Shown here in pieces: positions 132-58,040 of a stretch of DNA of 64,000 bases. Source of the DNA: Kalaharituber pfeilii (Eukaryota; Ascomycota; Pezizomycetes; Pezizales; Pezizaceae); contig WHUZ01000088.1 in NCBI GenBank assembly GCA_015179045.1, positions 62,001 to 126,000 on the forward strand. The letters are read 5' to 3'. The notes beneath the pieces were generated by a model that did no database searches, was not told the origin of the DNA, and worked only from the letters and a program-made list of their open reading frames with translations. Every line of letters begins with the position of its first letter. Positions within the stretch are counted from its first letter, which is position 1. The position numbers were made by a program, and so were the translations under genes.

Positions 132-559
132 TGTCACGTCGCCTACCCATTAGCAGGATATCCACTCGAGATGCACCGTAAAGCTGCTGAATGACAGTTC
201 GGCCAATCGACCGAGAGCTTACAGTAAGGCACGAGCACAGGAAAACAGCTGGTTAGGAGCTTTTTTTTTTTTTTTTGTGTATCACTAACCCCGCTTATCG
301 CTGTCCGCTATGGCAGGCCCCTGGGCCGAAACCCTCGATGCTCGGAGGCAGGCATTTTGGTTAGGAGCTTGGGGGAGTATTAAAAAGACGATCTATGGTT
401 ACGAAAGTGGCTGGAACCACTGAATGCAAGCTAAAGATTATATTATTAGAGAGAAGGCCTCATAGATGCCTGATAACGGCGCTATAGAGAAGTCAAGCTC
501 CAAGCGTTCCAGTAAGCTACACCTTGCAATACGCTGCATATCGTAGTTTCTGTAAGACT
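132..559 (+). repeat. Diverged solo LTR
   Basis: The segment starts TGTCAC and follows the 4987-5413 LTR in order: the CCTACCC block, the GATATCCAC block, the CGACCGAGAGCT/CAACCGATAGCT block, an AAGCTCCAAGCG block and a TCGTAG block near the end. Similarity is patchy, so this is an old copy. No internal retroelement sequence flanks it and no target duplication is clear. A LINE tail is inserted inside it. The right boundary is approximate. Confidence 0.55.
263..357 (-). mobile_element. 95 bp LINE 3'-tail insertion (tail family B/C)
   Basis: Poly(T) is followed by the reverse complement of a LINE 3' end (ACCCCGCTTATCG, CTATGGCAGG, CCTGGGCC), like the end of the long LINE at 16985-20784. It is flanked by a perfect 13 bp duplication, TGGTTAGGAGCTT, at 250-262 and 358-370. 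Only the 3' end of the parent is present. Confidence 0.85.
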
Positions 560-2573
560 CTAACCGTAAAGAATGTGAGTGCATTATAGACAGCTACACA
601 TATATATTCAGGACGTATATAGGGTAAGTACTGTGCATGCTGCTGGGTGTGGCAAGTAAATATTTTTCATATGCAGCCTCTGAACTCCTCTGACGAGGCA
701 CGACCGACGTGCGAGCCTGCGCTTGTGTTAGGATGGGTTATGCATAATATGTAGTCGAGGGGGATTAAGTATGCAGTGTAAGAGGAGAGCGATAACAACT
801 ACTATCCTCAGAAATGACCGGAAGGTTGAGAATTGGCGGAATACACATACAAGACTTGTATTCACATGCAGTAGTTGCATGGGGCCCTGTAGAGTACAGT
901 GGTGTGCGAGCGACGGGACGAACGGCTCAAATTCAGTTACTATATGCGAACACCACATTATTAATTAAAAACTAAAATAACTATACCTATGGTAGCATAT
1001 AAGCTTAAAGGAAGCAAGATTGGCTAGATTTTGGCAGGACTTATTATCACTTCGTTTGATGAAATCCCCGGTAGTCTTTCCATACTAACTCCCACCAGTA
1101 CAGAGCTACTCGGCGTTTGATTAGAACCTCATATCGTTTGCTGCCTAGATGCCCTCTTCGTAATAACGAGATTCAATATCCCCAGGTGATAGTTATTTAG
1201 AATTCTTTCAGTTCGAAGTACTGCAATTATTGCACTTAGTGCTGCCAAATGGGTGCCTGTCTATGTTGTTTCCTCTCGGAAGTGACCTCGCCATAGCCCA
1301 CAGGGCGGCATGCGAGTAATGAAATAAAAAAAAAAAAAAAAAAAAAAATCTCGGAAGTGAAAAACATACCCCTGAACATGAACTTCTCTCTCCACAGCAA
1401 ATGATCCCATTGAAATCAACCACTTCAGATATCAAAGACATGCAGGAATAAGTTATGTAAACCCTGGTACCATTGTTTCACATAATTACAGTAATATGCG
1501 AAGAGCCTGAAAATAACGAGTTTCATTTTACCCGCATGGAAAATTGCGCTATTTGTTCCAATTGGCGAACTGAGGTCCAAGGTATACTTTATATATTCTC
1601 TAAATTTCGCAAATGCATTCCGAGCCTATTTAATAGTAATTTGGACTGACAGGCATTGTGCGATGTAGTGCTCGAAAGTGTTCTGTCAATATAATACTGC
1701 ACTGTCAAAGTCACAAGCGATGAGAGCCGCGGATGAGTGGTAACACACCCGAACCTTTTCGGAACTGTCATCACATCACTGCACACCAAGATCAGAACGG
1801 GTTACCAATCGAATAATGGCAACTATGTTCGAGTTTGTTACGCGATGCTGTCCTTGTAGGCACTCCATCAATCCAAAGAGACCCACATCCATCAGATTTG
1901 TTTTTTGTATGCCGGGGAATATACTTGATTAGCGAGTACAACTATGCACCTGGCTCAACTTAACAGTGAAATACCCAGAATGCTGGGAATTGTATACAGA
2001 GTGCTCTACAGTACACAGGAGTAATATCGGTGAATTTGAATGTGTCGCGACACATGTCCTTGCAATCGAGTACAGGTGTAGTGGCATGCAAGCTCGTGGC
2101 ACCTCTGCATGCAAAGGAGAACTACTGTACTGCAATTCATAATAGTCCACGAAGACTGTACAGGGTTAATGCGAGAAAAAAAAAAAAAAAAGCAAACTGA
2201 GAACTTGAACGCCACACATACCGTACAAACTTTTAACATACTGTATTCGTCCCTTCTCTACTTACTGTCATTCCCATCTAACCAATAATAACATAAACAT
2301 CCTTGAGCAGTAATTATTGTGCGCATTTGCAGGGGAGTCCACGCAGGCGGCAACCTGGCACATGGGTGGCCTGCCAAGAACGGAAAATGGGGATGACTGC
2401 ATAATGTACGTAGCAATGAGAGGTGTGAGTCTACGCTCTCCGCCCACCTACCAAGGGTTCAATATAGTACTTGTAGAGTGATTTTTCCTGCTTTGCAATA
2501 ATTCCTACACCCAGTGCACTCACTCATGAAATCAAGTTAAAGTTTTCAGTATTCTCCAGCAACGGCATATACC
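560..2573. other. Intergenic, no supported gene
   Basis: Open frames here are short (under 80 codons), overlap on both strands and show no recognisable domain. The only structured feature is the hairpin-tail insertion at 1286-1348. From about 2340 the sequence resembles the region upstream of the second BTB gene (from about 10900), so this part belongs to the duplicated segment and probably holds the BTB promoter. Confidence 0.5.
1286..1348 (+). mobile_element. 63 nt hairpin-tail micro-insertion (LINE A tail)
   Basis: The insert is only CCTCGCCATAGCCC, a short loop, GGGCGGCATGCGAG, TAATGAAAT and poly(A). It is bounded by a perfect 12 bp duplication, TCTCGGAAGTGA, at 1274-1285 and 1349-1360. 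The two GC-rich blocks can form a stem. The same tail ends the longer LINE copies at 3849-4611 and 41489-41867. Confidence 0.92.
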
Positions 2574-3584
2574 ATGGAGTGCGTATAATCAATCCTGTCT
2601 GAGTTGTCTATCCTTACCCTCACTCTGCTAAGCATCGTGCCATAGTCCAACTTTGGAATACCTATTCTCTCCCTTCTTCACAATCGTACTGAAGAACCCC
2701 CAGGGTGCTGATACTACCAATGACACTACGGCTGCGACCAATTCAGCACTACCTCAGAAGCGCAAATTTTATGTGCATAGGAGCTTGCTAGCATCACTGT
2801 CCCCAGAGCTGGAGAAACATGCAAACAACATGAAGCAGGGCCTGGAAGGTGTCATGGAATTGAGTGATGTAGAAGAAGCAACGATGAAGGCACTCCTTGA
2901 GTGGGCATATACAAAGGACTACACAATGTGAGTACCTGTATTGCCCTTCACTACAATGTTCATTGAGGGCGACGACATCAAATGTGCTAAAAGATATATA
3001 GTCCAAATCCAACATCTGCTTCAGCTCTGCCCAAACACACCAAGCTTTACGCACTCGCTGATCGCTTTAATATTGAAACTTTAAAGGACCTAGTGTATTC
3101 GAGAATTACTAAACTTCTCACTGATCTTGGGAAGATGGAGGAGGCGGCAAACATTGAGGCACTCCTGTCTGCAATTACGTACGCATTCGACAACCTCCCA
3201 TCCTGCACTGCCAATTCGTCCGACGGCATTCAAGCTGTACCCTCGGATAGGTTGCTCAAGTACTTCGCGCAATATAGTGCATGGTTACTTAATGTTCTTA
3301 AGGACAAGAAAGAATTCTGCAAGCTGCTTTTATCTTGCACAGACTTTGCCAGAGCTGTGCTCTTCGTATCCAGGGCAGCAGCAGCACCTCCCTGGGTGGA
3401 CAGGGAGGGAGGAGTCGCGGAAATCACCGTGACGCTTGATGGGGTACCCGTCACCGTACGTGGCCAGTATCCAGAGTCTGGTCCACCAACCTATCAGGGT
3501 TCAGTACAGCTTCCGTTTTACTGCCCCAGTTATAGCCATAGTACTTCCAAGACAGTGACGGTGAATGTGCAAGGACACTTATAA
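2574..3584 (+). CDS. BTB/POZ-domain protein (copy 1)
   Basis: Three-exon model: 2574-2578, 2646-2927 and 3002-3584 (870 nt, 289 residues). Exon 1 codes only ATG plus GA. Intron 1 runs GTGCGT...CATAG and intron 2 GTGAGT...TATAG, and all phases fit. The N-terminal half has BTB features: a strand rich in F/T/I/V, then FYVHRSLLASLSPEL and a MELSDVEEATMKALLEWAYT helix pair. A BACK-like helical part follows (YALADRFNIETLK). The C-terminus is a strand-rich stretch that I do not recognise. BTB proteins are usually dimerisation modules or Cul3 adaptors; no partner domain is visible here. An AATAAA lies just after the stop. A paralogue is at 11229-12261, where the same exon structure is visible, which supports the model. 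Confidence 0.75.
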
Positions 3585-3635
3585 TGGAAATAAAGCTATG
3601 CAGCGTTAGAAGGTTACTGGTCTACGTTAGAGTAG

Positions 3636-3637
<2 letters not shown>

Positions 3638-3678
<41 letters not shown>

Positions 3679-3725
3679 TTTTGGTCACGTAACCACGCAA
3701 ACAGGCTACCAGCCTATAGCAGAGA
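3638..3725 (-). mobile_element. LINE 3'-tail fragment (tail family C)
   Basis: A run of about 40 T is followed by GGTCACGTAACCACGC and GGCTACCAGCCTATAGCAG. This is the reverse complement of the tail that ends the LINE at 5854-7531 (ATAGGCTGATAGC, GGGGTTACGTGAATAAA). It is absent at the matching place after BTB copy 2. No clear target duplication was found. Confidence 0.65.
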
Positions 3726-3848: not shown

Positions 3849-4611
3849 CCCAGGCCGCAATCCAGAGCATCACACGTATAGCCGAGGGCAGACACACACC
3901 GGGAGGGGCGGCACAAAGAGTAAGAGGCGCCTGGGAAAAAAGAGTGGAACGGGAAGGACTAAACGTCGCCATCATGTGGAAAAAATCTCACATCGGCATC
4001 AAGGGCAACGAGAGAGCCGATCGAGCGGCGAAGGATCGGTGCCTTCATCCAGTACCAAACGGAGGTGGTAACGGAGGCCGGAATCCGGATGGAATGCAAA
4101 TCCCGAAAAGCCGAAGAACGGAACCGACTGAACTTGAGTTATAGACTACTCCAGCGACTGGGGACGCTAACAGGCACGCTCGCAGGACTACTGGGCCTGA
4201 ACCACTGGAGGTTCAAGATCGGAAACACCGGATCACCGGAGTACCGCTGGTGTGGGGAGGAAGAGGAAACGCAAGACCACTTATGGGAACGGTGAAGGGT
4301 TTGGAAATGCAGGTGGCCGGGGGGAAAGGAGGGGACAAAGGAACCAAGGGAAAAGACAGGGGAGGACAAACTGGTGGGCATGCTCAGCTGGGCGAGCACC
4401 TAACGGGCATGCCACCGTTCACCGGGGGTCAGGAAATACTGGTCTAGTTATTCACTTTTGATTTTCTTTCGTTATGCTATTTCACGGGGGTCACCTTAGC
4501 CTAGTCACCATCTCTATCTCCATCCCTTTTCCTTATTATGTAATTATCCTCGCCATAGCCCTAGGGGCGGCAAGCGAGTAATGATATTAAAAAAAAAGAA
4601 AAGAAAAAAAA
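3849..4611 (+). mobile_element. 5'-truncated LINE A copy
   Basis: Flanked by a perfect 11 bp duplication, GAGTTGAGCTT, at 3838-3848 and 4612-4622. Broken frames hold the end of ORF2: an RNase H C-terminal piece (HIGIKGNERADRAAKD) and the Cys/His piece (YRWCGEEEETQDHL). It ends with the hairpin tail and an A-rich run. The duplicated region after BTB copy 2 lacks this insertion, giving an empty-site check. Confidence 0.85.
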
Positions 4612-5648: not shown

Positions 5649-5971
5649 TTACGGACATTAGCATTGCAACGAAAAGTGTACTTACAGGAGCTCTATTTTT
5701 CAGCAAACCCACGGTGTCCTATATATGGAAGGTCCCCTGTGGCCGTGGTTCTGACATTTTGGGTAGGCTGATTGAGTGCTATAGCAGAAAGCATAGACAG
5801 TGGTAGTGATAGCAATATGGTGGAGGGCACCAGTAAGGGACCACCTGTAACATCCGCAAATGCGCTGGTGCAGTTCAAGGGGCAGCGAGAGTAAAGGTCG
5901 AGGCTATTGCTGGGGTAGAGAGTGTAACGACGATCCTCGATCAAGGCCAAGCAAGGTATGCACTGAGATCA

Positions 5972-7394
5972 GTGAGGGTCCCTACAGGAGTGGGGGACCT
6001 GTGGCCTGAAAGCTTCAGTGGAATGGTAACCTCAGACCCAGACAGAGAGGGTGAGAGGGGGAGGGACTGGAGAGACTTTAGCTTGGGTTATGCTATAGGC
6101 AAAAATGATGGATTTGAGTCAGTAGCCGGAAAGATTGCCAGCACTTTCGAGGTCGATGAGGAGGAGAGAGTGTCCTGGGGACGAGATGTACACCTACTGC
6201 AGGCAGACATTGAGGTCATTGACCTCAAGCTGTGCAAGGAAGACGCCCCAGCTAAATGGGAAAAGGCTATCAATGAGGCTAAGAGTGACTCGGTGGCTAT
6301 TTTCACAGATGGCAGCCGCAGTGAGGAAGGCGGTGTTGGTGGTGGATGGTGCTGGAGGCAGGTGGTAGCAGGTGAGTCAGAAGGGTCCCGGTGGGTAGGC
6401 ACAAAAGCAACTGTGTGGGACGGCGAGGTCTCAGGAATGGGGGGGTGCGAGGTGTGGAGGAAGAGACTACCGAGAGGAGAGGAGGGACTAAGGGGCCGAT
6501 AAGGGATGAGGGGGTTAGGGGGGAGAAATGAGGCTGGCGGAGGTGATGGACTGGGCGGCAGAGTAGACGGAGTGGTGCAGGCACGCTCGATGTTGCGACG
6601 TTGTTTTTTACTTTTTCTGTGATGTTATACTCTGTTTATTCGTTGTTATGTATTTATATCCTCGCCATAGCCTACAAGGCGGCATGCGAGTAATGACATA
6701 AAAAAAAAAAAAAAAAAAAGAGGTCTCAGGAATGAAGAGTGCCCTTGAAGCAGTTGATGGCAGTGCAAAAGTGCTACTACTCGCAGACTCTCAGGCAGCT
6801 ATCAGTGCAGTCCAGAAAGCAGGAAAAACTGGCAAGGCAAGGACCGCAGATCTAGCGCGGGTGATAGAGTTGATTGCAGAGAGGCGGCAAAGGCTAAGGG
6901 AGGCGGATGCAGTGAAGCTGGCATGGGTCAAGACCCACGTGGGGATAGAAGGCAATGAGAAGGCAGATGAGTTGGCCAAAGAGGGGGCCAAGGGCATGAG
7001 GTATGATGGGCAGGCCACTGAGGGTGGGCTGCGTCAAGAGTTAGTTCGAAAAAGAAAAGAGGAGAGGGAGTGTGCAGGGTTTGGGAAGGGCAAATTCGTT
7101 AAGTGGGGCAGGAGAGCACTCACAAATTACACATGGCTGCGGACTGGAAAAGGCGGAACTAGGTGGAGGAGGATGGTTAGTGGCGAGGAGGTACAATGTA
7201 CATGTGGTGAGGCATGGAGTGCTGAGAATGTGGTGTTCAGATGCACCGAACTGGAGCGGCCCCAGAGGAAGGACAAAGATGGGGCGCATGTCACCTGGCA
7301 GTCCTGGGAGGACCTAGAGGAGAAAGGGTGGAAGCAAGAAGGTGTGGAAGGTGACCCGGTCGAGTACTGGTTTACCTGCCTCGATCTGGGGTAG
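5972..7394 (+). pseudogene. LINE ORF2 C-terminus: RNase H and Cys/His region, split
   Basis: Two pieces, 5972-6439 and 6735-7394, are one reading frame split by the insertion at 6440-6719. RNase H landmarks in order: FTDGSRSEEGG (first Asp), WDGEVSGMKSALEAV (Glu, crossing the insertion point), LADSQAAISAVQKAG (second Asp) and WVKTHVGIEGNEKADELAKE (last Asp region). Then comes a C-terminal CTCGEAWSAENVVFRC cluster. Reverse transcriptase and endonuclease are missing. It cannot act alone. Confidence 0.85.
6440..6719 (+). mobile_element. 280 bp LINE A fragment nested in LINE C
   Basis: Flanked by a perfect 15 bp duplication GAGGTCTCAGGAATG at 6425-6439 and 6720-6734. It contains an ORF2 end fragment (GTGCGAGGTGTGGAGGAAG), a 3' UTR and the CCTCGCCATAGCC hairpin tail with poly(A). 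It interrupts the RNase H frame, so it is younger than the LINE C copy. Confidence 0.92.
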
Positions 7395-9040: not shown

Positions 9041-9172
9041 CCCTGGTTGGTTGCAATTTTTTTTTTTCCATCACATAACCCCTCTTGCAGCTGTTCGCCA
9101 TGGCAGAACAGTTGGTTGCAGTAGGTCGTATCAAATAGTTTAGACCTAGCATCTGTATGAATAGCCAAAAAA
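9041..9172 (-). mobile_element. Terminal fragment of the GGCCCTG transposon family with nested LINE tail
   Basis: TTA precedes GGCCCTGGTTGGTTGCAGTAGG, and the sequence continues as the reverse complement of 8440-8493. It is a solo end, not a complete element. A 53 bp LINE B tail (9058-9110: poly(T), ATCACATAACCCC, CGCCATGGC) is inserted inside it with the 10 bp duplication GTTGGTTGCA at 9048-9057 and 9111-9120. Confidence 0.8.
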
Positions 9173-16984: not shown

Positions 16985-19900
16985 GGGGGTGAGGTTGGGA
17001 GATGTTTTTGGGGACGGAGGCCTGCTTGATGGGGGGTGGGAAGCAGAGAGCAGCGGGGTACCCAGACCAGTATGGTGAAGGTAGGGTACCAGAATGTTGG
17101 GGGATCGTCGGTGGGGGGGCATGTGTGGAGGGAGACCATGTTCAAGGAAGGGTGGGACTTGGGCTTTGAGGGAGAAGTGTGGAAAAGGGAAGAAGTGGGG
17201 GGATGGAAAGTGGGGGGGCACCCGAGTCTGAAGAGGATCGGGGGGGTCGGGAAGGAGACGAGGGTGGTAGGATGGGAGCGGAGAGAGGGGAGAGGGGGGA
17301 GGAGGGGCGACGGGAATATAGTATGGGGAGAGAGGGAGGGGGTGGCAGTAGGGGGGGTATATGTGGATGGGAGATGGAGGAACGAGGAGTTTGAGAGGTG
17401 GCTGGAAGGAGTGCTAGAGGTGCAGGGCAGGTGCGTCCTAGTGGGGGACTGGAACGCGCACAGCCCGGCATGGAGTCTGGAAGGGGTGGAGGAGAGTGGG
17501 AGGGGCAGGATTCTGAGGGAGAGGATGGAGGGGGCTGGCTTCACCTTGGTGGGAGAAAGGGAAGCAACGTGGAGGAGGGAAGTGGAGGGGAGGTTGAGAG
17601 AGTCGAGGATCGACTTGGTGTGGGTAAGGGGAGTGACGGTGGACCGGGTGGGCCTGGTGGATGTGGGGTCGGACCACTCGGGGCTGGTGGTAGAATTCAG
17701 GGGAGAGGGGGAGGTGGAAGAAGGGGAGAACAGGGTAGTGAGGGTTGACTGGGAGAGGATGGAAGAGGAGGTAGAGGGGTGGGGGGGGAGTGGGGGGAGG
17801 AGGAAAGGAAGGAGTGGTTGGAAAGGGTGGGGGGAGGGACCGCATACGAGAGGCTGAAAAGGTGGAAGAGGTCCCTAGAGAAAGAGGTGAGAGTGGGGGG
17901 GAGGAGCAAGAGGTGGTGGACGGAAGAGATAGAGGAGATGAGGAAAGAAGTCAACAGGCTGGCACGGGGGGGGATAGGGGCCAGAGCGAGGTTGACGGAG
18001 GGGGAGAGGGTGAGGGGTTGGAAGGCGGCGGTGCAAAGGATGAAGTGGAAGATCCGGGAGGAGAAGAAGAAGTGCTGGAGGGAGTTCGTAGAAGAGGAAG
18101 GGTACAGCGACCCATGGAGGGTGGTGAGGGTGGCGAAGGACCCTTTCGGAGGAAAGGAGAGGATGGGAAGGTTGAAAGATGAGGAGGGGAGGGAGTTGGA
18201 GGGGGACGGAGAGAAGGTGAGGGCGCTGGTGGAGAGGAATTTTGCGTGGAGGGAAGAGGGGGAGGCAGAGGCGGGGGAGGAGGTGGGGGAGGGGGAAGCG
18301 GAGGAGGAGGGGGATGAGAGGGAGAGGGAGAGAGTAGAAGGAGAAGTGAGGGCTGCGTTGCAGGGCACCAAAAACAATTCGGCACCGGGACCCGACGGAA
18401 TCGGATACCGATTGATCAAAGCTGCCCTGAAGACTCCCATCGGGGATGAGTTAGTGAGGGAGATCGCCGAAAACTGGATCCGGAACAGGACCCCAGCGGA
18501 GTGGAGAGAGATGAGGGTCGTCATGATACCGAAGCCGGGCAAGGACATCAAGACGGCGAAAGCGTGGAGGCCAATCAACCTGATTAACTGTATCGGGAAG
18601 ATCGGGGAGAAAGTCATGGCCAGCAGGCTACAGAAAGAAGACCGACTCTTCCACAGGCTCCAGCTGGGAGCACGCAAGGGGAGGAATGCGATCCAGGCGA
18701 TGGCGAGGGCGGTAGCAAAGGTGCAGAGGTGCCTGCACAGGGGGGGGAGAGCAGCGTGGGTGACGGCGGATGTTAAAGGAGGCTTTAACATCGTGAGGAA
18801 GGAGGTGGTTCTGAGAAGGATTGAGGAGAGGGGGAGCGAGGGGTGAGAAAGAAGCGGAGGTGGCTGGAGGAGTTTATGGGAGGCAGGGAGTTCGGAGTGT
18901 GGTGGGACGGCGAGGAGAAAGGGAGGGGCAGGTCGAACGTGGGGGTTCCGCAAGGGTCACCACTGTCACCGGTCATCTTCCTCATCTTCATGGCACCCAC
19001 CATTGAGAAGATGGAGAGAAGGCTGAGGGGGGTGGCGATGGGGGCGGAGGTAGAAGTGCCATCGTATGTTGACGACCTGGCAGCAACGATCCTAGACTGG
19101 CACGGGTACTGGGATATGGGGCGGCTCAGGGAGAAGGTGAAGGTGGCGATGGCGGAGGTGGCGGAGGAAGACCAGATCCCGCTGGAGGAGTCGAAGTGGG
19201 AGATGATAACCTTCGGGGTGGGAAAGAGGTGGAAGAAAGAGGGGGAGATGCTAAAGTGGTTAGGGGTCATCTTCGATGAGAACTTGACCTTTGGCGCACA
19301 TTGGCGAAACAGGCTGAGCCGAGCGTGGAGGCTGGCGGGGGCTCTCTCGGGACTGGGCAACCGGAACTGGGGGATGTCTCCACGCAGCTGGAGGCAAGCC
19401 TACACGGGGATGGTGAGGGCGGTTGCAATGTGGGGAAGCGAGATCGGGTGGAGGGGACAGAAGGAATGGAGGAAGGAGATGGAGAGAGTCCAGCTGCAGG
19501 TGTTGAAGAAGGCGGCTGGAGGAGGGAGAGGAGCGGGGGTAGGAGGGGTGAGTGCGGTGTGTGGAGTGGAGGACGTGGAGACGGTCCTGGATGGCGCGCA
19601 AGCGAGGGCGATCGTCCGGGAGGTGGAGGCGCCGTCAGAGCTGGCGGAGCTTTGCACGGGCGACTTCGGAGGGAGTGAGGAGAGAGAGGAGGAGGCGAGA
19701 AACTGGAGAGACTGGGGGGTGCAGTGGGCGGTGGTCGAGAATGAGGGGTATGAAGCAGTGCTGGACCGCTGGCAAGGTCAGTGGGCGAGGTTCTCGGAGG
19801 AGGGGGAGGAGATCTCGTGGGGAGGGGGGTGTGAGAAGGTGGAGGTGGAAGTGGTGGAGAGGCGGAAAGGAGAAGTGGAGACGAGGGGGGAGTGGGAAGC

Positions 19901-20751
19901 CGCGATCGGGGAAGCCGGAAGAAAAAGGGCAGTCCTTTTCTCCGACGGCAGCAAGATCGAGGACAGCAAGGTGGGAGCAGGGGTGTGGGGGAGGTCGGCA
20001 GCCGTGGCGGAGGTGGTGGGGAGAACGGCGACGGTGTTCGATGGGGAGGTGAGGGGAGTGAGAAAGGCGCTGGAGAGTGTGGAGGTGGAGGTCCCTGTAC
20101 TGATCTGTTTAGATTCTGAGGCTGCCGTCATGGCGATCCAGAAGGCAGGCAGGGAGGGAAAGGGGAAAACCGAGGATGTGAGGAGAGTGGTGGATGCCGT
20201 AGCGAGGAGGAAGAAGAAGGGAGGGGATGCGAAGCTGATGTGGGTCAAGGCTCACATCGGAATCGCAGGAAATGAGAAGGCGGATGAGTGGGCGAAGAAG
20301 GGGACGGTGATGCAGGGGAAGGAGGTGGCCACCGGAAGTGGGGTGCGCCAGAGGGTGAAGGCGTGGAGGAAGGAGAAGAGAGAAGTGGACGGCTTTGGAG
20401 GAGGAAAGGTCATGGAGTGGAGTAGGATGGCGACATCAAACTTCACTGCATTGCGACTGGAGCGAGGAAGGTGTGCTAGGTGGTTGAAGAAGCTAGGGGT
20501 GGCGGAATCGGATAGGTGCAGGTGTGGGGAGGTGCAAACGGGGGAGCATCTCGCTTTCCGATGCAGAAGTCAGGAGAACCGCCCAGAAGGTTTTGAGAGG
20601 TGGAGCGACATGGGAAAGGAGTGGAAAAGAAAGGCGGAGAATGGGGAGGAGTATGATGTTTTAGAGAATTTCTTCGCCGGGGTCAAGTTCCCCGGGCTAT
20701 GAGGGCTTGCCCAGGGACCCTGCCATGGCTTAGTGCTACAAGCGGGGTTAT

Positions 20752-20784
<33 letters not shown>
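16985..20784 (+). mobile_element. Long LINE B copy (EN-RT-RNase H), 5'-truncated
   Basis: A 3.8 kb non-LTR retrotransposon, strikingly G-rich on the sense strand. It starts in the last codons of ORF1, whose stop overlaps the ORF2 start (ATGGTGA at 17072-17078). It ends GGGACCCTGCCATGGC...GCGGGGTTATGTGATTT and poly(A). No target duplication was found; the left end abuts the Copia PBS at 16984. This tail type recurs at 263-357, 9058-9110, 28617-28670, 40814-40966 and 42615-42711. Confidence 0.88.
17072..20702 (+). pseudogene. LINE B ORF2: AP endonuclease, reverse transcriptase, RNase H
   Basis: Three overlapping frames: 17072-17857, 17779-18846 and about 18843-20702. Frame 1 is an APE-type endonuclease with GDWNAHSPAW, SRIDLVWV and GSDHSGLVVEF. 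Frame 2 begins RT with NSAPGPDGIGYRLIKAAL, WRPINLINCIGKI and LGARKGRNAIQAM. Frame 3 has VPQGSPLSPVIFL, the catalytic YVDD (SYVDDLAAT), then RNase H (FSDGSKIEDSK, FDGEVRGVRKALE, CLDSEAAVMAIQKAG, HIGIAGNEKADEWA) and a C-terminal CRCGEVQTGEHLAFRC. The shifts fall at G-runs near 17780-17805 and 18830-18845. One-base indels are the likely cause, though programmed shifting is not excluded. All catalytic motifs are otherwise kept, so the copy is young. Confidence 0.88.
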
Positions 20785-20856: not shown

Positions 20857-20878
20857 TGATATTAATAAAAAAAAAAAA
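20857..20878 (+). mobile_element. 22 nt micro-insertion (LINE tail end only)
   Basis: TGATATTAAT plus poly(A), flanked by the perfect 12 bp duplication TCAACCCTTCTA at 20845-20856 and 20879-20890. TGATATTAA is the last few bases before poly(A) in the LINE A tail, so the hairpin itself is absent. Confidence 0.85.
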
Positions 20879-21785: not shown

Positions 21786-21822
21786 TTTTTTTTTTTTTTT
21801 TTTATATATCATTTATCGCTTA
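21786..21822 (-). mobile_element. 37 nt micro-insertion truncated in the hairpin
   Basis: Poly(T), ATATATCATTTATCGCTTA, which is the last part of the LINE A tail. It is bounded by the perfect 13 bp duplication ATGGGGAGAGAGA at 21773-21785 and 21823-21835. Confidence 0.88.
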
Positions 21823-22194: not shown

Positions 22195-22220
<26 letters not shown>

Positions 22221-22257
22221 CATTACTCGCATGCCGCCCTGGGGGCTATGGCGAGGT
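22195..22257 (-). mobile_element. 63 nt hairpin-tail insertion with AT-repeat tail
   Basis: Reverse complement of the hairpin (CATTACTCGCATGCCGCCC...GGGCTATGGCGAGG) after an (AT)n stretch where poly(T) would be. The 13 bp duplication GGGGAGTATATAT lies at 22182-22194 and 22258-22270. The AT-rich tail may be a mutated or expanded poly(A). Confidence 0.85.
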
Positions 22258-25325: not shown

Positions 25326-25382
25326 ACCTCGCCATAGCCTATCAGGCAGCACGCGAGTAATGATATAAAAAAAAAAAAAAAA
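25326..25382 (+). mobile_element. 57 nt hairpin-tail micro-insertion
   Basis: ACCTCGCCATAGCC...CAGCACGCGAGTAATGATAT and poly(A), with the perfect 13 bp duplication TTGCTTTTTTCCT at 25313-25325 and 25383-25395. The stem carries changes, so it is older than some copies. Confidence 0.9.
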
Positions 25383-27736: not shown

Positions 27737-28390
27737 TATGGAGGCTGATAGTTCTTATAAAGAGGAAGAGTATCAAAAAGAGGTACAATCTGTGGAGCTT
27801 TAACGCAACCTCCAGGCATGTTATAGAATATTCCATAATTACAATCAAGTGGCGGGGTTGTCGCCTCATCGCGCAGCGCCAAGGAAAAATTAACAACCTG
27901 ACGGCCATATGCAGTGTTACTTCCCACAGAGCAGGGAATTCAAACTGGCAGTTTAAATTGGTGCGCCGCTGAGCATTGCGGTGTTACTTCAATTGAGATC
28001 TTCGTGTCAATTTGATGCTAATGGGGGCTATGCAAGTGAGCAGTAAATGGCTACTATATACTTAGCTATCTTTTTTTTTTGGTCAAGCAACCCCGGCTGC
28101 CAGCGAAATACTTAGCTATCGCCAGCCTGTTAGCAGCCTGTACCTTATTAATCTCCAAGCTAAGTAAGTATCGAGTGTGCCTGGGCCACCCAAGTTAATT
28201 TTTTGGACAAATTGGTCAGTGGCCCAGGCTATTCGACGGCTGGCTCTATTTTTTTAACTCGTTATCACCAGTGTGCTCAACGGACAATATGACAAATGCT
28301 GTAGTTCAACTTCTGAAATGCTATAGACGTCAGTCAGCTATTGTAGTTTTCAGTACGTTGTCACTTGGGCCTCTATTGTAATCAGTCTTC
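27737..28390. other. Intergenic with one LINE tail
   Basis: Upstream region of the lectin gene. Apart from the 28071-28107 insertion there is no coding or repeat structure I can support. Confidence 0.4.
28071..28107 (-). mobile_element. 37 nt LINE C tail micro-insertion
   Basis: Poly(T), GGTCAAGCAACCCCGGCTGC, CAGCGAA, a decayed reverse complement of the GGGGTTACGTGA tail. It is bounded by the perfect 13 bp duplication ATACTTAGCTATC at 28058-28070 and 28108-28120. Confidence 0.85.
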
Positions 28391-28616: not shown

Positions 28617-28670
28617 GCCCTGCCTTGGCGAACAGCTGCATGCGGGGTCACGTGAAAAAAAAAAAAAAAA
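28617..28670 (+). mobile_element. 54 nt LINE B tail micro-insertion
   Basis: GCCCTGCCTTGGCGAAC, AGCTGCATGCGGGGTCACGTG and poly(A), between two copies of GGGGTGAAGGAG (28605-28616 and 28671-28682). It splits an unrecognised short reading frame (28674-28988). Confidence 0.9.
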
Positions 28671-33309: not shown

Positions 33310-33354
33310 CTTCGAACACCCGGTCTAACAGTTCTAAATCCTCATTACTGTACC

Positions 33355-37803: not shown

Positions 37804-37819
37804 CACCGGGCTCATAACC
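37804..37819 (-). promoter_or_regulatory. Half-tRNA primer-binding site of the Copia
   Basis: The plus strand CACCGGGCTCATAACC is the sequence of an initiator tRNA-Met from the anticodon stem to the CAT anticodon loop. Its complement directly follows the 5' LTR. Drosophila copia and yeast Ty5 are known to prime from such cleaved tRNA halves. Confidence 0.85.
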
Positions 37820-38114
37820 TCTAACGTTTTTATGGAGAGAGGAGAGTTTATTGTGCTTGCTCGATTAGCTTCGGGAGCTCTGCTACATACTACTGCTATC
37901 TACATTTTTCTGGCGCGATACGCCCCCTTTTTATATTCTCGCTCCTTCAGCCTTCAGCCTCCGTTCATTTTTAGCAACTTGAATTTTAGCCCTGCGAGGA
38001 AAGTTGAATTTTAGCCCTGTGAGGAAAGTTGAATTTTAGCCCTATGAGGAAAGTTGAATTTTGACCCTATGAGGTTTAGCTCATTGACCGGGGGTGAGAG
38101 GCTACATTCTTACA
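37820..38114 (-). repeat. 5' LTR of the Copia
   Basis: Same 295 bp as 33005-33299. It should hold the promoter for the genomic RNA. Confidence 0.95.
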
Positions 38115-38410: not shown

Positions 38411-38467
38411 TGTTTTTTTTTTTTTTTTTCATTACTCGCGTGCCGCCTTGCAGGCTATGGCGAGGGG
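38411..38467 (-). mobile_element. 57 nt hairpin-tail insertion absent from copy A
   Basis: Reverse complement of the LINE A tail (CATTACTCGCGTGCCGCC...GGCTATGGCGAG) with poly(T). The 12 bp duplication GGTCGTCCRGAT lies at 38399-38410 and 38468-38479, one mismatch. The matching place in copy A near 29430 is empty, so it inserted after the segmental duplication. Confidence 0.93.
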
Positions 38468-40966: not shown

Positions 40967-42071
40967 GTCTCGCTAGAGTCATTTCGCACGAAACTAAACT
41001 GTGAGTTTCCGCCCGCAAAAATTGTCCAACAGAGGAGAGTATAGCCTTCGCTTGCTATAGCAAACTGCATCGCACTATTTTATCGCATCATGACATTGAC
41101 ATTGCATTGCACCACTATTATGGCAGAACTCAACCCTCACAATATCCTCACTGTGGACCTATTATTGGAATAGTATTTAAATAACAGAGTAAATGGTGTT
41201 GTTTTACAACAAAACTCCTATGCGGACATCAGCATTGCAAGGAAATGTGTACTTACAGGAGGTTTATTGTTCAGCAAACCCGCGGTGTCCTTTGGAAGGT
41301 CCACTTTGCATGTAGGTCTGACATTTCGGGTAGGCTGATTCAGTACTATAGCAGAAGGCATAGACAGTAATAGTGACAGCTGTAGTAGCTTGAGACTCGG
41401 AATGCAATAGCTGCAGTTGACAAGTTTGACATTGGTGGCAGCGGGGTCCAAATTTTTTTTTTTTCCTTTCTTTTGCACAATGAGAACGCGACTCGCCGGA
41501 GTGCAGGTGGTGCGGCAAAGCCCTAGAGAACACCAACCACATACTCAACGACTGCGAAGTGTGGAGGCGAAAGTGGCCCGGGGGTGAGACAGATCTGCGG
41601 GCCCCACCAAAACCCGAAGAGGAAGGGGAAGGAGACAAACTGGCGGAGCTACTGGAGTGGGCAGGGCGGGTTTAGACAGGGGACTTCTACCTTGACACTT
41701 CTATTTCCGTCTCATTTTAATTTCCGTCTATTATCATGCAATATTTTCGATGGAGGAGAGACTTCGACATTTTTCATTCCACTTCCTTTCATGTACTTAA
41801 CCTCGCCATAGCCCCCAGGGCGGCACGCGAGTAATGATATAAAAAAAAAACAAAAAAAAACAAAAAAACAATGAGAACGTAGCAAACGAACCTTCAAGTT
41901 GCCGATCTTTTTCGCACTGCATATCTGTAGGTACGTAGTCAAATTGTAGCAAACAAACACTTCCCCAGTTCCAACTGCACCTCTTACGTCGTATCCGAGT
42001 CCCGCCTGGGCCATTCAAACTGATGCTGGGTCTAAACTATCTGATATGACCTACTGCAACCAAACAGGGCC
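40967..42071 (+). mobile_element. GGCCCTG transposon family, copy 2
   Basis: Matches 4871-5840 and then 8180-8493 in order, ending CAACCAAACAGGGCC followed by TTA. The left terminus is missing, and the central part present in copy 1 is deleted. It carries a LINE A fragment. It is the empty-site control for the solo LTR at 4987-5413. Confidence 0.82.
41489..41867 (+). mobile_element. 379 bp LINE A fragment
   Basis: Bounded by the perfect 12 bp duplication ACAATGAGAACG at 41477-41488 and 41868-41879. It holds the ORF2 end (SPECRWCGKALENTNHILNDC, shortened here to the Cys/His part, and KLAELLEWAG), a 3' UTR, the hairpin and an A-rich tail. Copy 1 at about 8293 is the empty site. Confidence 0.92.
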
Positions 42072-42614: not shown

Positions 42615-42711
42615 TCAAGCCTGCCTCCGGGCTTTGAGGGTTTAGACCCAGGGGCCCTGCCATGGCGAACAGCTGCACGCGGGGTCACGTGATAAAAAAA
42701 AAAAAAAAAAG
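42615..42711 (+). mobile_element. 97 bp LINE B tail insertion in the minisatellite
   Basis: Ends GGGGCCCTGCCATGGCGAAC, GGGGTCACGTGAT and poly(A). The perfect 13 bp duplication GACAGGTCCTATA lies at 42602-42614 and 42712-42724. Confidence 0.92.
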
Positions 42712-43005: not shown

Positions 43006-43094
43006 CGTCACTTCTTTTCACCACCCATGTAACTATACCTCGCCATAGCCCACAGGGCGGCAAGCGAGTAATGATGTTAAAAAAAAAAAAAAAG
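43006..43094 (+). mobile_element. 89 bp LINE A tail insertion in the minisatellite
   Basis: A short 3' UTR piece, the hairpin and poly(A), with the perfect 11 bp duplication GAGCTCAATTC at 42995-43005 and 43095-43105. Confidence 0.92.
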
Positions 43095-43198: not shown

Positions 43199-43228
<30 letters not shown>

Positions 43229-43279
43229 CTATCAGTACTCGCATACCGCCCAATGGGCTATGGCGAGGTTTTATTTCAG
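43199..43279 (-). mobile_element. Hairpin-tail insertion, first of a pair
   Basis: Poly(T), CTATCAGTACTCGCATACCGCC and the rest of the hairpin, then GTTTTATTTCAG. ATGGTGGAATG occurs at 43188-43198 and 43280-43290. Confidence 0.88.
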
Positions 43280-43291
43280 ATGGTGGAATGA

Positions 43292-43369
43292 ATTGTTTTT
43301 TTTTTTTTTTTTTTTTTTTTATCAGTACTCGCATGCCGCCCAATGGGCTATGGCGAGGTTTTATTTCAG
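43292..43369 (-). mobile_element. Hairpin-tail insertion, second of a pair
   Basis: Nearly identical to the preceding one, with the same GTTTTATTTCAG end. ATGGTGGAATGA precedes it and recurs at 43370-43381, making three copies of the target with two inserts between. Confidence 0.85.
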
Positions 43370-43735
43370 ATGGTGGAATGATAAGAGGGCATCTGTATAT
43401 ATATTATAGACCAGGATAGCTAGTTTTTAATGAATAAACAATTGATTTGTCAAACATGATATTATGGCATGGTAGAATGAAATCTGCGTAAGCACAAGAC
43501 GCGCGAGTAGCCGACTACTACTGGATGACTTTCACTAGCCCAGATTCCCAGATTCCTAGATCCCAGACTCCCAGATTCCTACACCAGCCACTGCCAAGGA
43601 CGTCGCAGATTTTTCAGACCCCCTTCCAGATTCCTAGATTCCCAGATTCTGGCAGACCACCCCCCCCCCCTCTGCCAGACGGTTTTCGCAGATTCTCAGA
43701 TTCTCAGACCTATCCACTAAACTCGATTCAGCAAA

Positions 43736-44956
43736 ATGCAACCTATACTCCATAATGGTCATGATGATGATGATGAAGATATCTATATCGCAGTCGGTTT
43801 AATAGCACTCTATGGCCTGCAATTACAGCGCGAACAACGAAATCGCTTCTACCTGACGCGCGTGTGTTTACCACTGCCAACATCCTCAGCTTGGAGTTCT
43901 CTATATCACAGTCGCAATGTTAAAGGGTTCATTGTTACTATGGGAATAAGTCCAGTTACATTTGATAAAATTTTATCAGCTGGATTTGAGGAGAAATGGG
44001 TGGTGAGACGACCAGAGTCAAAGCCACGTACTGCGACAAGAGTATTAGATGCAGCTGGTACTCTAGGTCTCGTTCTACACTACCTTAACTCAACAATGAT
44101 GCAGTTTTCGCTACAGCAAATTTTCAGTATCTCACCAAGTACATGTAGCCGATATCTTCTACATGGAATTCAAACGTTATTATCTACCTTGCGTTGTATG
44201 GAGGAAGGTTCTATTCATTGGGCTATAAGTAATGATACCTATGCGTATTATTCTACTTTGATACAAGATAAATACCCTCTACTCGAAAATGCATTTGGTT
44301 TTGTTGATGGTTGTCATCTTCCTATTCAAACATCAAATGATGTCGATATTCAGAATGCATATTATAATGGTTGGGTTCATAGCCATTTTACTTCAAATGT
44401 ATTCACATTCGCACCAACTGGTATTCTTCTACATGCCGTCATCAATGCACCTGGTAGTTACCATGATGCTGCTGTTGCTCGAGAGCTTTTTCAGCTACTT
44501 CAACGACATACACCTACATCTTATTATTTGATTGCGGATACAGCTTTTCCACGTGGTTCCGGCAATCGAATTCAAATACCATTAAAGTCTGACTTCAACC
44601 GGTGGCCTGCAAATCCTATCGAGAAGGCTCTACTACTGCGGAGGAATACACAATTAGTTTCTGCAAGACAAGCAGCTGAGTGGGGGATGCGTTCTTTACA
44701 AGGTTCATTTGGACGGTTGAAAATCCCACTGCCAGCTTCAGACAATTCACGAAGGCGAGCTATTCTGGAGCTATGTTGTAGAATGCATCAAATACGAGTT
44801 CGGTGTGAAGGTATCAATCAAATTCGCAATGTATATGAGCCAGCATGGAGAGAATATGGTAGAGAGATCTATGAAGACTTCGCAAATCTTATGTTCAAAG
44901 ATATTCAATGTAATGATCGAATTGCTCGTTTCTATCATCATCATGTATTTACTTAG
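43736..44956 (+). CDS. Harbinger DDE transposase
   Basis: 406 residues, ATG at 43736. The DDE_Tnp_4-type core has the first Asp in NAFGFVDGCHLPI, the conserved APGSYHDAAVARELF, then YLIADTAFPRG (second Asp region) and the Glu in AAEWGMRSLQGSFGRLKI. The N-terminal part has ITMGISPVTFDKIL and a TATRVLDAAGTLGLVLHYL helical region typical of these enzymes. It cuts and joins the element ends. The stop overlaps the end of the convergent Myb-like gene by 8 nt. No introns are needed. Confidence 0.93.
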   Translation: MQPILHNGHDDDDEDIYIAVGLIALYGLQLQREQRNRFYLTRVCLPLPTSSAWSSLYHSRNVKGFIVTMGISPVTFDKILSAGFEEKWVVRRPESKPRTATRVLDAAGTLGLVLHYLNSTMMQFSLQQIFSISPSTCSRYLLHGIQTLLSTLRCMEEGSIHWAISNDTYAYYSTLIQDKYPLLENAFGFVDGCHLPIQTSNDVDIQNAYYNGWVHSHFTSNVFTFAPTGILLHAVINAPGSYHDAAVARELFQLLQRHTPTSYYLIADTAFPRGSGNRIQIPLKSDFNRWPANPIEKALLLRRNTQLVSARQAAEWGMRSLQGSFGRLKIPLPASDNSRRRAILELCCRMHQIRVRCEGINQIRNVYEPAWREYGREIYEDFANLMFKDIQCNDRIARFYHHHVFT

Positions 44957-45935
44957 ACTCCTTATCCTCCTCAGAACTGTCAGATTGATACTTCCTCTTA
45001 CTACCGCGTTTTATAAGATTAAGCTCTAATCGTAACATATCAACCTTTGCCTCCAGCCTTGCATTCCGACGTTCAGATTCACGTAATTCCCGACTTAATT
45101 CCCGATTATTCTCTCTCTCTTGACTTAATTGAGCCTCTAACAACCTTTGATAGTTCCGTTCTGACTCTCGTTCTGCACGCTTCTCAGGATTCAAATGATC
45201 CAAAAGCAAAACCTCTAAATCTTTACCCCTGTGTGTAGACCTGACTCTAGAAGGAGGCCTTGGAATAGCTGAGGACTCTCGTGGGACAGGCGTGCTAGAG
45301 AACTCTCGTGGGACAGGCGTGCTGGAGAACTCTCGTGGAACAGGCGTGCTGGAGGACTCTCGTGGAACAGGCGTGCTGGAGAACTCTCGTGGGACAGGCG
45401 TACTGGAGGAGTCTCGTGGAAGAGACATAGAGGTAGCTTCGGAGGAAGTAGCGGAGGTAGCAGAGGTAGCGGAGGTAGCGGAGGTAGCAGAGGTAGCCTG
45501 CGTGATTGGTATTGATGAATCCAGCCCTTCCTCAAGCTCTAATAGAGAATAGTCATCTAGGCTAACCATTTCTACCTGCTCTCGTATAACTCGATCAAGG
45601 CGTTTAGCTCGTCGAACATCATCAGGACAGGTAGGATCCCCGGTTGGCTTCGTGCAGTTGATCAAAGAGCTCCATTTTTTGCGCAAGCTTGCAGTATCTC
45701 TACTACAGCGTCCATTATCATTTGCATATACCACATATTGCTCTCTAACTCTCTCCCATGCATCCTGCGATGTCGGAAGTACTGCTTCAATCGCGTCTAG
45801 TAAGGCATCTTTATCGGCTTGAGAGTAGTTCTGTGAACCTGCATCTCGGCCTTTCTTTATATCCTGTGATTGTGACATTTCTCCTGGCTGTGATGATGGA
45901 GCTGGAGCTAGGTTGCTAAGGGGTCGATTACGCAT
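44949..45935 (-). CDS. Harbinger Myb/SANT-like accessory protein
   Basis: 328 residues, start at 45935. Residues ~35-110 are a Myb-like helix set (NYSQADKDALLDAIEAVLP, AWERVREQY, RDTASLRKKWSSLINC). Next comes a low-complexity section with (ATS)n and imperfect STPVPRE(S/F) repeats coded by a ~24-30 bp minisatellite. A basic coiled-coil end follows (ERESERNYQRLLEAQLSQ and KRGSKRKYQ). In this superfamily the Myb-like partner binds element DNA and helps carry the transposase to the nucleus. Confidence 0.88.
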   Translation of the reverse strand: MRNRPLSNLAPAPSSQPGEMSQSQDIKKGRDAGSQNYSQADKDALLDAIEAVLPTSQDAWERVREQYVVYANDNGRCSRDTASLRKKWSSLINCTKPTGDPTCPDDVRRAKRLDRVIREQVEMVSLDDYSLLELEEGLDSSIPITQATSATSATSATSATSATSSEATSMSLPRDSSSTPVPREFSSTPVPRESSSTPVPREFSSTPVPREFSSTPVPRESSAIPRPPSRVRSTHRGKDLEVLLLDHLNPEKRAERESERNYQRLLEAQLSQERENNRELSRELRESERRNARLEAKVDMLRLELNLIKRGSKRKYQSDSSEEDKESK

Positions 45936-46187
45936 GTCGGAGTGTTCAGGGGGTGGACAGCGGGTAGAGAGCGAGCGCAGGTGTTGGGAGAGTAGAGGGT
46001 GTTCAGTAGCACTCGTTAGCTTTAGGAATCTGGGAATCTGGGAATTTGGGGGGTTCCTAGTGAAAACGGGGTTTTGCCCAGAATTATCCTAGACGTGCAA
46101 ATGTGGCGAAAATCTGAGTCTGGGAGTCTAGGAATCTGGGAATCTGGGCTAGTGAAAGTCATCCACTAATTCAGGTCACACTTGAGG

Positions 46188-48649: not shown

Positions 48650-49641
48650 GGTGCCCCTTTATCACCCCGCCATGCTATACCAGTCTAGCGCATTCTCAAT
48701 TTGCTCCATCTCACACCATCGAGAGTAATCTGCCATACCTGTAAAATTGTAAATTGAGCGCATTTTGGCATATCTCGCACCATCAAAGCAGGTCTTGTTG
48801 TATCTGTCAAATTGAGCCATACCGCGTCACTTTGCACCATAAAAAGGGGCCAGCCTTAACTGTGAATTGAGCTCATTTTACCATGTTCCACGCTGCCCAG
48901 TGCGTCCTGCCGTACCTGTCAAATTTGGCTCATTCTGCTGTTCTCACACTGTGGAAAGAGTCCGGTGATACTTGTCAACTTGAGCTCATTTCTGCCTCAT
49001 CTCACGCCATCAAAAGAAAGCTGTCATACCTGTTAAATTGAGCTTATTCTGCCTCATTTTTGCCTGTCAAGGTCATATCGGTCAACTTGACCACATCCAT
49101 CCTCATCTTGCGCCATTGAGGGAGACTGTTATACCTATTAAATTCAGCTCATTGTTCTGCATCTCACACCATTGAGAAGCTATCATACCTATCAAAGTGT
49201 CTGTCAAATTCGACTCATTTTGCTGCATCTCGTGAGGTGAAATAGACCTACCATACCTATCACATTTGACTCGTTCTGCTGCATGTCGCACCATTGAGAA
49301 GCTGTCGTGCCTGCCAAATTGAGGAGCTGTCGTGCCTGCCAAATTGAGGAGCTGTCGTGCCTGTTAAATTGAGGAGCTATCGTGCCTGTCAAATTGAGGA
49401 GCTGTCGTGCCTGTTAAATTGAGGAGCTATTGTGCCTGTTAAATTGAGGAGCTGTCGTGCCTGCCAAATTGAGGAGCTGTCGTGCCTGTTAAAGTTCCTG
49501 TCAAATTCAGCTCATTTTCCCGCAACACGGAGGGACCCGCGGGCAATATATGTAGTTAGGTAGTTAGGATTGGTGTTCTTTTTTCTACTTTCTCTAATAA
49601 AGACCCTCGCCATAGCCCGTCGGGCGGCATGCGAGTATTGA

Positions 49642-49677
<36 letters not shown>

Positions 49678-54009: not shown

Positions 54010-54070
54010 TAGAACTACCAGTGACCGCGGGTTACACCGTCGGGATAAGCACCTGGCGTGCGGGGTTAAC

Positions 54071-56168: not shown

Positions 56169-56229
56169 TTTTTTTTTTTTTTCTTTCTCTCTTAATATCA
56201 CATAACGGCCTGTTTGCCATGGCCATGGC
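56169..56229 (-). mobile_element. 61 nt LINE B tail insertion
   Basis: Poly(T), ATATCACATAACGGCCTG, TTTGCCATGGCCATGGC. The 15 bp duplication AGGGCAACCRTATGG lies at 56154-56168 and 56230-56244, one mismatch. Confidence 0.88.
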
Positions 56230-56640: not shown

Positions 56641-56659
56641 AAGAAAAAAAAAAAAAAAA
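56641..56659 (+). mobile_element. 19 nt poly(A)-only insertion
   Basis: AAG followed by 16 A lies between two perfect copies of TCAGCGCATGCTTA (56627-56640 and 56660-56673). The 14 bp duplication marks it as a target-primed insertion that kept only the poly(A). Confidence 0.8.
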
Positions 56660-57179: not shown

Positions 57180-57181
<2 letters not shown>

Positions 57182-57220
<39 letters not shown>

Positions 57221-57257
57221 TCATTACTCGCATGCCGCCCCATGGTCTATGGCGAGT
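57182..57257 (-). mobile_element. Hairpin-tail insertion with T-run then A-run
   Basis: About 24 T followed by 16 A, then TCATTACTCGCATGCCGCCC and the rest of the hairpin. The perfect 11 bp duplication AAGGATGGCTT lies at 57171-57181 and 57258-57268. Confidence 0.88.
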
Positions 57258-57325
57258 AAGGATGGCTTACAAATTGAGAAACATTTGCTGCAGGATATCA
57301 CAAGGACAGATTATGAGGGGAAATG

Positions 57326-57363
57326 TGCGGCACGCGAGTATTGATATAAAAAAAAAAAAAAAA
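57326..57363 (+). mobile_element. 38 nt micro-insertion truncated within the hairpin
   Basis: TGCGGCACGCGAGTATTGAT, AT and poly(A), i.e. only the 3' half of the hairpin. GAGGGGAAATG at 57315-57325 and GAGGTGAAATG at 57364-57374 form an 11 bp duplication with one mismatch. Confidence 0.85.
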
Positions 57364-58040
57364 GAGGTGAAATGTATTTCCATTTAAACACGTATTAGGA
57401 CCTACACTCATATTAGCTTATAATCATCAGCTCCTCCGGGGTAGAACATAGGAACTAGAAGTGCTAAAATTAAACTTCCAACGTATCACTGACCACCACC
57501 GGCGCCGTTGTTGTGGGCGGGATTACCTCTCTTTGGCTGCAACAGTTGCAATACTAGTATACTCCAGGTACAGGCATACCCTCCAATGAGGGGTAATATC
57601 CATACGTATATCGGTTATATTCTTAAATTGAGAGACATGGTAAATACACGCAGGACGGATACAGAAGCATGGGAAAAGCTCGTTTGGGGGCATAGGAAGT
57701 TAGAGAAAATGCTTTGAAAGGTAAAGGGGCTTAATAGAGGGGTAAATACACTTGGCGACATTGCAACAAAGGGTGAATAAGGAAGTGAGTAGCGTAGACA
57801 GAGCTGTTAACAATCGGGAGGGGGCTACACAGGAATAATTCTCATCGATAAGTGCCCAAAATAAACGTAGATAAGTCTCGTTACAAGCCCATATACAAAC
57901 AAACGAAAAAAAAAAAAAAAAAATAAAGCAAATGCTAATACGAAAATACCGTTATTTTGCACTTCAGATCGGACATTGTATGTTGATATCGAGGGTATGC
58001 TGATACCGAGTATGCTTAACATACCTTGTGGCTTTTCCAA

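Follow-up and report, generated by a model that had tools for sequence, protein, structure and literature searches.

Very short LINE-tail insertions that begin at hairpin feet in the genome of a desert truffle

Stem-loop tails of long interspersed nuclear elements (LINEs), truncation of LINE copies from the 5' side and extra letters at insertion junctions are individually known. Whether 5' truncation comes from an enzyme falling off or from an RNA that was already broken is an old question. In a study of R2 elements, a stable fold at the 5' end of the template is argued to be a barrier to 5'-3' exonucleases (PMC11331408), and another study describes full-length inserts as joined directly more often than truncated ones (PMC4245944). 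The window analysed here is a stretch of 64,000 nucleotides (nt), positions 62001-126000 of contig C348 of the desert truffle Kalaharituber pfeilii (assembly of 78.0 megabases (Mb) in 360 contigs), which carries insertions made of little more than the hairpin and poly(A) of a LINE 3' end.

Such very short insertions, flanked by target duplications mostly of 10-15 base pairs (bp), are real and common. They derive from three or more types of LINE tail (A, B and B2), among which two unrelated hairpins can be told apart: A (CTCGCCATAGCC..GGCGGCANGCGAGTAATGA) and B/B2 ([GA]CCCTGCCATGGC..GCGGGGTYAYGTGA). A sequence-only reading of the window had given all inserts the same 3' tail; this was wrong, and a single tail common to all is rejected. 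The three tail types have one start rule in common: the inserts begin at the foot of a hairpin, in two of the types also at that of a second hairpin further up. We consider it somewhat probable that the template was a 3' piece of LINE RNA, trimmed to the hairpin foot and copied to its end by target-primed reverse transcription. The occurrence of this boundary in three tail types makes the broken-template idea directly testable, and extrapolation suggests more than 1000 inserts in the genome that are too short for much repeat annotation, each bringing a duplication of about a dozen bp and poly(A). Within the terms tried, no title or abstract opening on inserts beginning at hairpin feet was found in the open-licence literature.

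Start positions of the inserts

The strict A hairpin occurs in 1412 exact copies in the 78 Mb, the B hairpin in 2335 copies with at most 2 mismatches and the B2 hairpin in 732 with at most 3; each reversed pattern gave 0. For every tail pattern 100 places were listed and copies were sampled in list order: 98 for family A, all on contigs C1-C8 (2 dropped by flank or duplicate filter), 80 for B and 20 for B2. All B and B2 places listed match exactly, and the likeness of their hairpin letters is therefore a product of selection. Duplications were controlled with swapped flanks. In family A near the hairpin, score 7 was reached in 0.2% and score 6 in 1% of 2910 pairs, and far upstream score 9 in 2.3% of 386 pairs; with thresholds of 6 (near) and 9 (far), roughly one near and two far placements could be spurious. 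The same control gave 1/1577 for family B and 4/660 at a score of at least 8 for unselected A-runs. Target duplication and poly(A) end, the marks of a LINE insertion, were found in families A, B and B2 as well as in the window inserts.

Twenty of the 98 family A copies have a duplication ending 1-6 nt above GCCATAGCC (one, L085, weak), a zone whose lower limit is inside the foot of the stem CTCGC/GCGAG and whose upper limit is 3 nt beyond it. Another 31 were placed 31-753 nt above GCCATAGCC (one doubtful), none of the 98 at 7-30 nt, and 47 were unplaced, with no duplication within ~760 nt. Target duplications of micro-inserts are about equal in length to those of 5'-truncated LINE copies. A preference of the target nick as proof of a shared enzyme was dropped, for an A before the nick merges with the tail in scoring; G before the nick is infrequent (0/19 in A micro, about 5/27 in A long and about 4/51 in B micro copies).

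Hairpin 2 was lacking, by a fuzzy test, in 71 of the 80 B copies; 52 of these have a duplication at hairpin 1, the other 19 none. One of these 19 (L206) is LINE-length with a deletion, which leaves 70 if it is excluded, and some copies with no accepted duplication show one by eye (L116, L135). The remaining nine comprise five hairpin-2 starts with duplication, two long copies and two ambiguous ones; one of the latter, L167, coincides with L158, which starts at hairpin 2. Relative to the G of GCCCTGCC, the 52 duplications end at -2 (3), -1 (12), 0 (25), +1 (5), +2 (3), +3 (2), +6 (1) and +10 (1; L127, by eye at 0). Immediately ahead of GCC, the 71 copies have T (33), C (22), A (10) or G (6), where the LINE has GGG, and the 18 letters above hairpin 1 in copies lacking hairpin 2 match the LINE no better than shuffles. 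In a further set, 20 of 264 copies chosen for their sequence above hairpin 1 were pooled with other loci into 24 distinct copies; 11 start at hairpin 2 (offsets -2 in 1, -1 in 1, 0 in 5, +1 in 1, +2 in 3), 11 carry LINE letters above it and 2 are odd. At locus L157 (about 975-1000) a hairpin-2 start is preceded by ~16 T within a 12-bp duplication, perhaps from A added to the end of the complementary DNA (cDNA) or from a template switch.

Ten of the 20 B2 copies start at the A of ACCCTGCC (L212 and L217 aligned by eye) and four at the T of TAGCCTGTCTCCGGGCTA (TAGCC, hairpin 2; offsets 0, 0, 0, +1). Six have at least 80 nt of common sequence above, one of them with a duplication 237 nt up, and none of the 20 starts elsewhere in the hairpin stretch, including between the two hairpins.

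A-runs not selected for a hairpin give the same start peak. After 216 search-pattern A-runs had been set aside, 174 were left, from the window and from loci themselves chosen by hairpins; the removal of exact copies reduces the number of hairpin-bearing inserts whatever their length. A duplication at a score of at least 8 was found in 47 of the 174. One is spurious, and the distance from duplication to A-run is 0-12 nt in 3, 13-33 in 3, 34-46 in 23, 47-64 in 4, 65-90 in 6 and 91-160 in 7. The four at 47-64 nt begin at the feet of longer tails, by eye; the 23 at 34-46 nt include a piece lacking the hairpin (L045) and a much diverged tail (L111), and the 91-160 nt bin includes a pattern copy from the other strand (L157) and some composites. 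The smallest inserts reach below the hairpin, to almost pure poly(A). At L045, on the minus strand, a 52-nt insert resembles the LINE A tail above the hairpin plus poly(A), within a 12-bp duplication and with the hairpin itself absent; perhaps it arose by early polyadenylation.

The sequence-only reading had asked whether insert lengths peak near 55-65 nt, with starts at the hairpin base, or decay smoothly, and the A, B and B2 samples and the unselected A-runs all give a peak at hairpin feet. The first of the two causes it offered, plain random 5' truncation, is therefore not enough. Ordinary random truncation seen through a biased sample could draw on the broad starts of family A further up and on its 47 unplaced copies. 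The search patterns do not select upstream starts, yet no placed A copy lies at 7-30 nt, the B2 copies avoid the space between the hairpins and the unselected A-runs agree, which leaves this explanation almost negligible in probability. Although the longer A copies spread, no broad 5' end spread was found overall, and random truncation as the sole cause is rejected by the pile-up at hairpin feet.

Origin of the boundary

The reading that we prefer places the boundary at the RNA level. LINE transcripts would be cut or trimmed from the 5' side, by a nuclease, to a hairpin foot within the last ~100 nt. Trimming would stop at hairpin 2, which lies where the reading frame ends, or at hairpin 1, directly before poly(A). 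The remaining piece of hairpin and poly(A), presumably protected by the LINE protein or by its fold, would be recognised by that protein, which would nick the target and copy the fragment to its 5' end. The sequence itself shows where the 5' ends lie, which target duplications flank the inserts and which letters stand at the junctions. At hairpin 1, ten B copies carry additional strings of 1-3 letters (C, C, C, T, C, TC, AT, TG, ACT, CGC); 0/10 equal the LINE's G, GG or GGG, and one has the same last letter. Both the difference of these letters from the LINE and the lack of LINE sequence upstream of the start fit a template that ended there. If trimming of RNA is true, 5' ends joined to poly(A) are expected at the G of GCCCUGCC, the A of ACCCUGCC, the A of AAGCC and the U of UAGCC.

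An alternative is abortive target-primed reverse transcription, in which the enzyme, on full-length LINE RNA, would release after copying the bound hairpin, much like abortive initiation. The 3' stem-loop is bound by stringent LINE proteins, according to one report (PMC4176376), and in another the Magnaporthe LINE MGL switches templates at fixed sites beside predicted hairpins (PMC2104539). At locus L049 (plus strand, about 120) an insert of CACGTGA and an A-run begins directly after the 3' side of B hairpin 1, which is the pattern expected of a reverse transcriptase halted by the hairpin. Copying starts at poly(A), and a hairpin acting as a barrier should thus leave starts on its 3' side; the pile-up is on the 5' side, where most inserts begin. 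For abortive copying, the enzyme would have to halt just where it has passed the hairpin, in many cases with single-nucleotide precision, and do likewise at hairpin 2, and the extra hairpin-1 letters differ from the LINE template. The motif given for MGL, GCC before the break, is absent above the starts, with GGG above hairpin 1 and mostly GAT, GGT or TTT above hairpin 2. We consider this explanation unlikely.

Trimming could also act on DNA, a long cDNA being resected from its free 3' end to a DNA hairpin before joining. This would yield the same starts at both hairpins together with the extra letters of end joining, and sequence alone does not tell it from trimming of RNA. It demands the loss of kilobases of cDNA in most family B events; we know of no precedent and searched for none. 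We regard it as quite improbable.

Microhomology as the cause of the fixed start is a weak candidate: 15 of 40 B junctions overlap by 1-2 nt, possibly more than expected by chance (P between 0.008 and 0.12 at chance rates of 0.20 to 0.28).

A conserved 3' stem-loop with compensating changes, the mark of stringent LINEs, was found mainly in the A foot pair and hairpin 2, with kinship uncorrected. In A-like hairpins (93 distinct sequences) the pair at the foot is C-G in 65, A-T in 20, T-G in 4 and A-G in 4, and the inner pair C-G in 82 and T-A in 7; the remaining pairs hardly vary. The first B pair is G-U in 23, A-U in 7 and G-C in 1 of 31 distinct B-like hairpins. Hairpin 2 reads AAGCC/GGCTT in B vs TAGCC/GGCTA in B2, and the start remains at its foot. 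Compared with shuffled versions, two micro sequences of A have better predicted folds than the majority (z -2.9, -3.4), and the advantage of a longer A piece is smaller (z -1.8). Rfam gave no match in the window at gathering score, nor in L150 up to E 5, and a known ribozyme or other Rfam family is rejected on this ground; the same searches revealed no fold like the hepatitis delta virus (HDV) ribozyme at the cut site, in a scan that covered the window and L150, with A and B2 tails within the window only.

Several observations weigh against trimming of RNA. From a 5'-3' exonuclease one would often expect a few nt to be left ahead of a stem, and the starts of family A are less exact. The B and B2 pieces fold ordinarily (z -0.7 to -1.8), an isolated 40-nt hairpin-2 piece folds otherwise (z +0.7), and within the LINE, stem 1 can be extended by one pair below the cut. 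Junction types do not separate micro from long copies: the 52 B micro junctions are direct in 25, overlapping by 1-2 nt in 15 and with extra letters in 12, and 16 long A junctions have an overlap of 0 in 8, 1 in 6 and 2 in 2. The B overlaps, as said, may exceed chance. Of five extra strings at hairpin 2, those of L147 and L222 are identical to the LINE letter and thus uninformative, and 6 of the 47 matches of the unselected scan start just 3-27 nt before the A-run. The search for a parent belongs here too. The C variant of hairpin B (GCTGCACGCG) is present in 0 of the 11 long B copies of the hairpin-2 set; the sole exact-hairpin C copy with LINE-like letters (contig C347; L227) is not LINE-length, and two verified LINE-length C copies (L228, L229) each carry further hairpin changes. 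An exact C-variant parent of the B micro copies was sought and none was found among the verified long copies.

That the commonest B micro variant has no secured parent makes trimming less likely and a true micro-SINE more likely, that is, a short interspersed nuclear element (SINE) of ~38 nt plus poly(A) with its own transcript, mobilised by a LINE. In 71 B starts the hairpin-1 variants are C in 28, A in 26, T in 16 and G in 1, and six of 28 B copies with LINE-like letters above hairpin 2 have the C variant. The unit's discreteness and fixed 5' end, a copy number well above 1000 (provided that the sampled exact copies are typical) and the small number of long copies in family B would also suit a micro-SINE. 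On the other side, the A and T variants are present in long LINE copies (L117, L143), the free hairpin letters are alike in family A micro and other copies (permutation p 0.40, 0.36, 0.67), there are two start points and three tail types behave alike. No tRNA, 5S or 7SL head with an RNA polymerase III (pol III) promoter was found, the unit being LINE end only with no Rfam match (window, L150). To our knowledge, ~38 nt is too small for any known internal pol III promoter. A transcribed micro-SINE, in the sequence-only reading of ~45 nt, is hence not the best fit, and we judge it distinctly unlikely while keeping it among the candidates.

We also make a wider proposal, tentatively and with confidence just short of even: promoterless retroposons of ~40 nt plus poly(A) may arise recurrently from 3' LINE RNA footprints protected by protein or fold, their 5' end set by RNA decay and not by transcription, and the genome would keep a near single-nucleotide map of trimming stops. 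Such a class would be the smallest retroposon class known to us.

Insertions and other elements of the window

Twelve intervals named by the sequence-only reading were inspected with their flanks, and A-runs in the window were also scanned automatically for target duplications. All twelve inserts were present. Among the nine short ones, the scan recovered the duplications of six (1286, 25326, 28617, 9056, 56169, 57182), and those at 22195, with its AT-rich tail, and 38411, with one mismatch, were read by eye. The ninth, 43199-43279, is present, but as one of two neighbouring units, and may be a local duplication. The three longer inserts have duplications by eye. The scan added four tiny inserts (20857, 21786, 28071, 56641) absent from the earlier account.

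1286..1348, plus strand: tail A micro-insertion, starts CCTCGCC at the hairpin foot; 12-bp duplication, scan
25326..25382, plus strand: tail A micro-insertion, starts ACCTCGCC; 13-bp duplication, scan
57182..57257, minus strand: tail A micro-insertion with an odd T16A23 tail; 11-bp duplication, scan
38411..38467, minus strand: tail A micro-insertion; duplication with one mismatch, by eye
22195..22257, minus strand: tail A micro-insertion with AT-rich tail; duplication ggggagtatatat, by eye
28617..28670, plus strand: tail B micro-insertion, starts exactly GCCCTGCC (hairpin 1); 12-bp duplication, scan
9056..9110, minus strand: micro-insertion with diverged B tail; 10-bp duplication, scan
56169..56229, minus strand: micro-insertion with diverged B-like tail; 15-bp duplication with 1 mismatch, scan
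42615..42711, plus strand: tail B insertion whose start is 2 nt above hairpin 2 (AAGCCTGCCTCCGGGCTT); 13-bp duplication, scan
263..357, minus strand: B-like insertion starting about hairpin 2 (by eye); 13-bp duplication, scan
43006..43093, plus strand: tail A insertion of 88 nt, start above the hairpin; 11-bp duplication, scan
49519..49674, plus strand: tail A insertion of 156 nt; 12-bp duplication, scan
6440..6719, plus strand: tail A insertion of 280 nt within an older LINE reading frame; 15-bp duplication, by eye
41489..41867, plus strand: tail A insertion of 379 nt; 12-bp duplication, by eye
3849..4611, plus strand: tail A insertion of 763 nt; 11-bp duplication, by eye
43199..43369, minus strand: two adjoining tail A units, 97% alike over 89 nt, flank included
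20857..20876, plus strand: 20-nt insertion of only TGATATTAAT and an A-run, like the tail A end; 14-bp perfect duplication, scan
56641..56659, plus strand: 19-nt insertion, almost pure poly(A); 14-bp perfect duplication, scan
21786..21822, minus strand: 37-nt insertion limited to the 3' half of hairpin A; 13-bp perfect duplication, scan
28071..28107, minus strand: 37-nt insertion with another tail; 13-bp perfect duplication, scan
17030..20784, plus strand: LINE with endonuclease, reverse transcriptase and RNase H (Pfam), tail by reading a sibling of B/B2

The adjoining units at 43199..43369 are possibly one insertion plus a local duplication. The flank of the copy at 42615 recurs at L182, which makes it part of a duplicated segment, counted as one event. 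A partial hairpin A (TGCGGCACGCGAG..) with an A-run lies at 57326-57362, with an 11-bp duplication (one mismatch) seen by eye and missed by the scan.

The start given for the LINE at 17030..20784 is that of its open frame. Its sibling tail, and the LINE protein found by tblastn upstream of some long A and B copies, connect the insert tails to elements coding for endonuclease, reverse transcriptase and RNase H. An older LINE frame at 5837-7394 is split in two by the tail A insertion at 6440-6719. Copies are unevenly spread on contig C1 (3.0 Mb): among the matches listed there, all 15 exact hairpins of type A fall in the first 0.49 Mb and all five exact copies of B at 0.39-0.50 Mb, and the one B2 copy is at 2.6 Mb. 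This spread perhaps reflects repeat-rich compartments.

Other elements occupy the window as well. A long frame on the minus strand (33355-37467), Copia-type by eye, lies between two identical 295-nt repeats (33005-38114). At 43721-46088 a DDE_Tnp_4 frame adjoins a DUF6818 frame on the opposite strand, which we take to be probably a PIF/Harbinger-type DNA transposon. At 57981-61594 an array of 99-nt units, ankyrin-like by eye, lies in a frame of 778 amino acids with an NPHP3_N domain frame alongside; we presume a resemblance to fungal NLR-type genes.

Comparison with described systems

The inserts have several relatives among described retroposons. In common with 5'-truncated LINE copies they have the poly(A) end, a similar duplication length and tails as in long copies; they differ in that many starts sit at two hairpin feet and many inserts hold less than 45 nt of the element. 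SINEs that carry a LINE 3' end, such as those of stringent pairs and the Mg-SINE of Magnaporthe (PMC2104539), are likewise short, with a common 3' hairpin, a discrete 5' end and a probable dependence on a LINE. Unlike these, the micro-inserts have no RNA-gene head, no promoter was seen in them, and their sequence is LINE end only.

Truncated RNA templates are also known from the tailless retropseudogenes made from truncated tRNA or SINE RNA, which lack poly(A) (PMC3747384), whereas the present inserts retain poly(A) and have lost their 5' side. The R2 elements (PMC11331408) have an HDV-like ribozyme at the 5' end; there, too, a 5' fold favours insertion and extra letters stand at some junctions. 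In R2, however, the fold lies at the 5' end of a long RNA, and in K. pfeilii it is a 3' hairpin, left after the loss of the rest.

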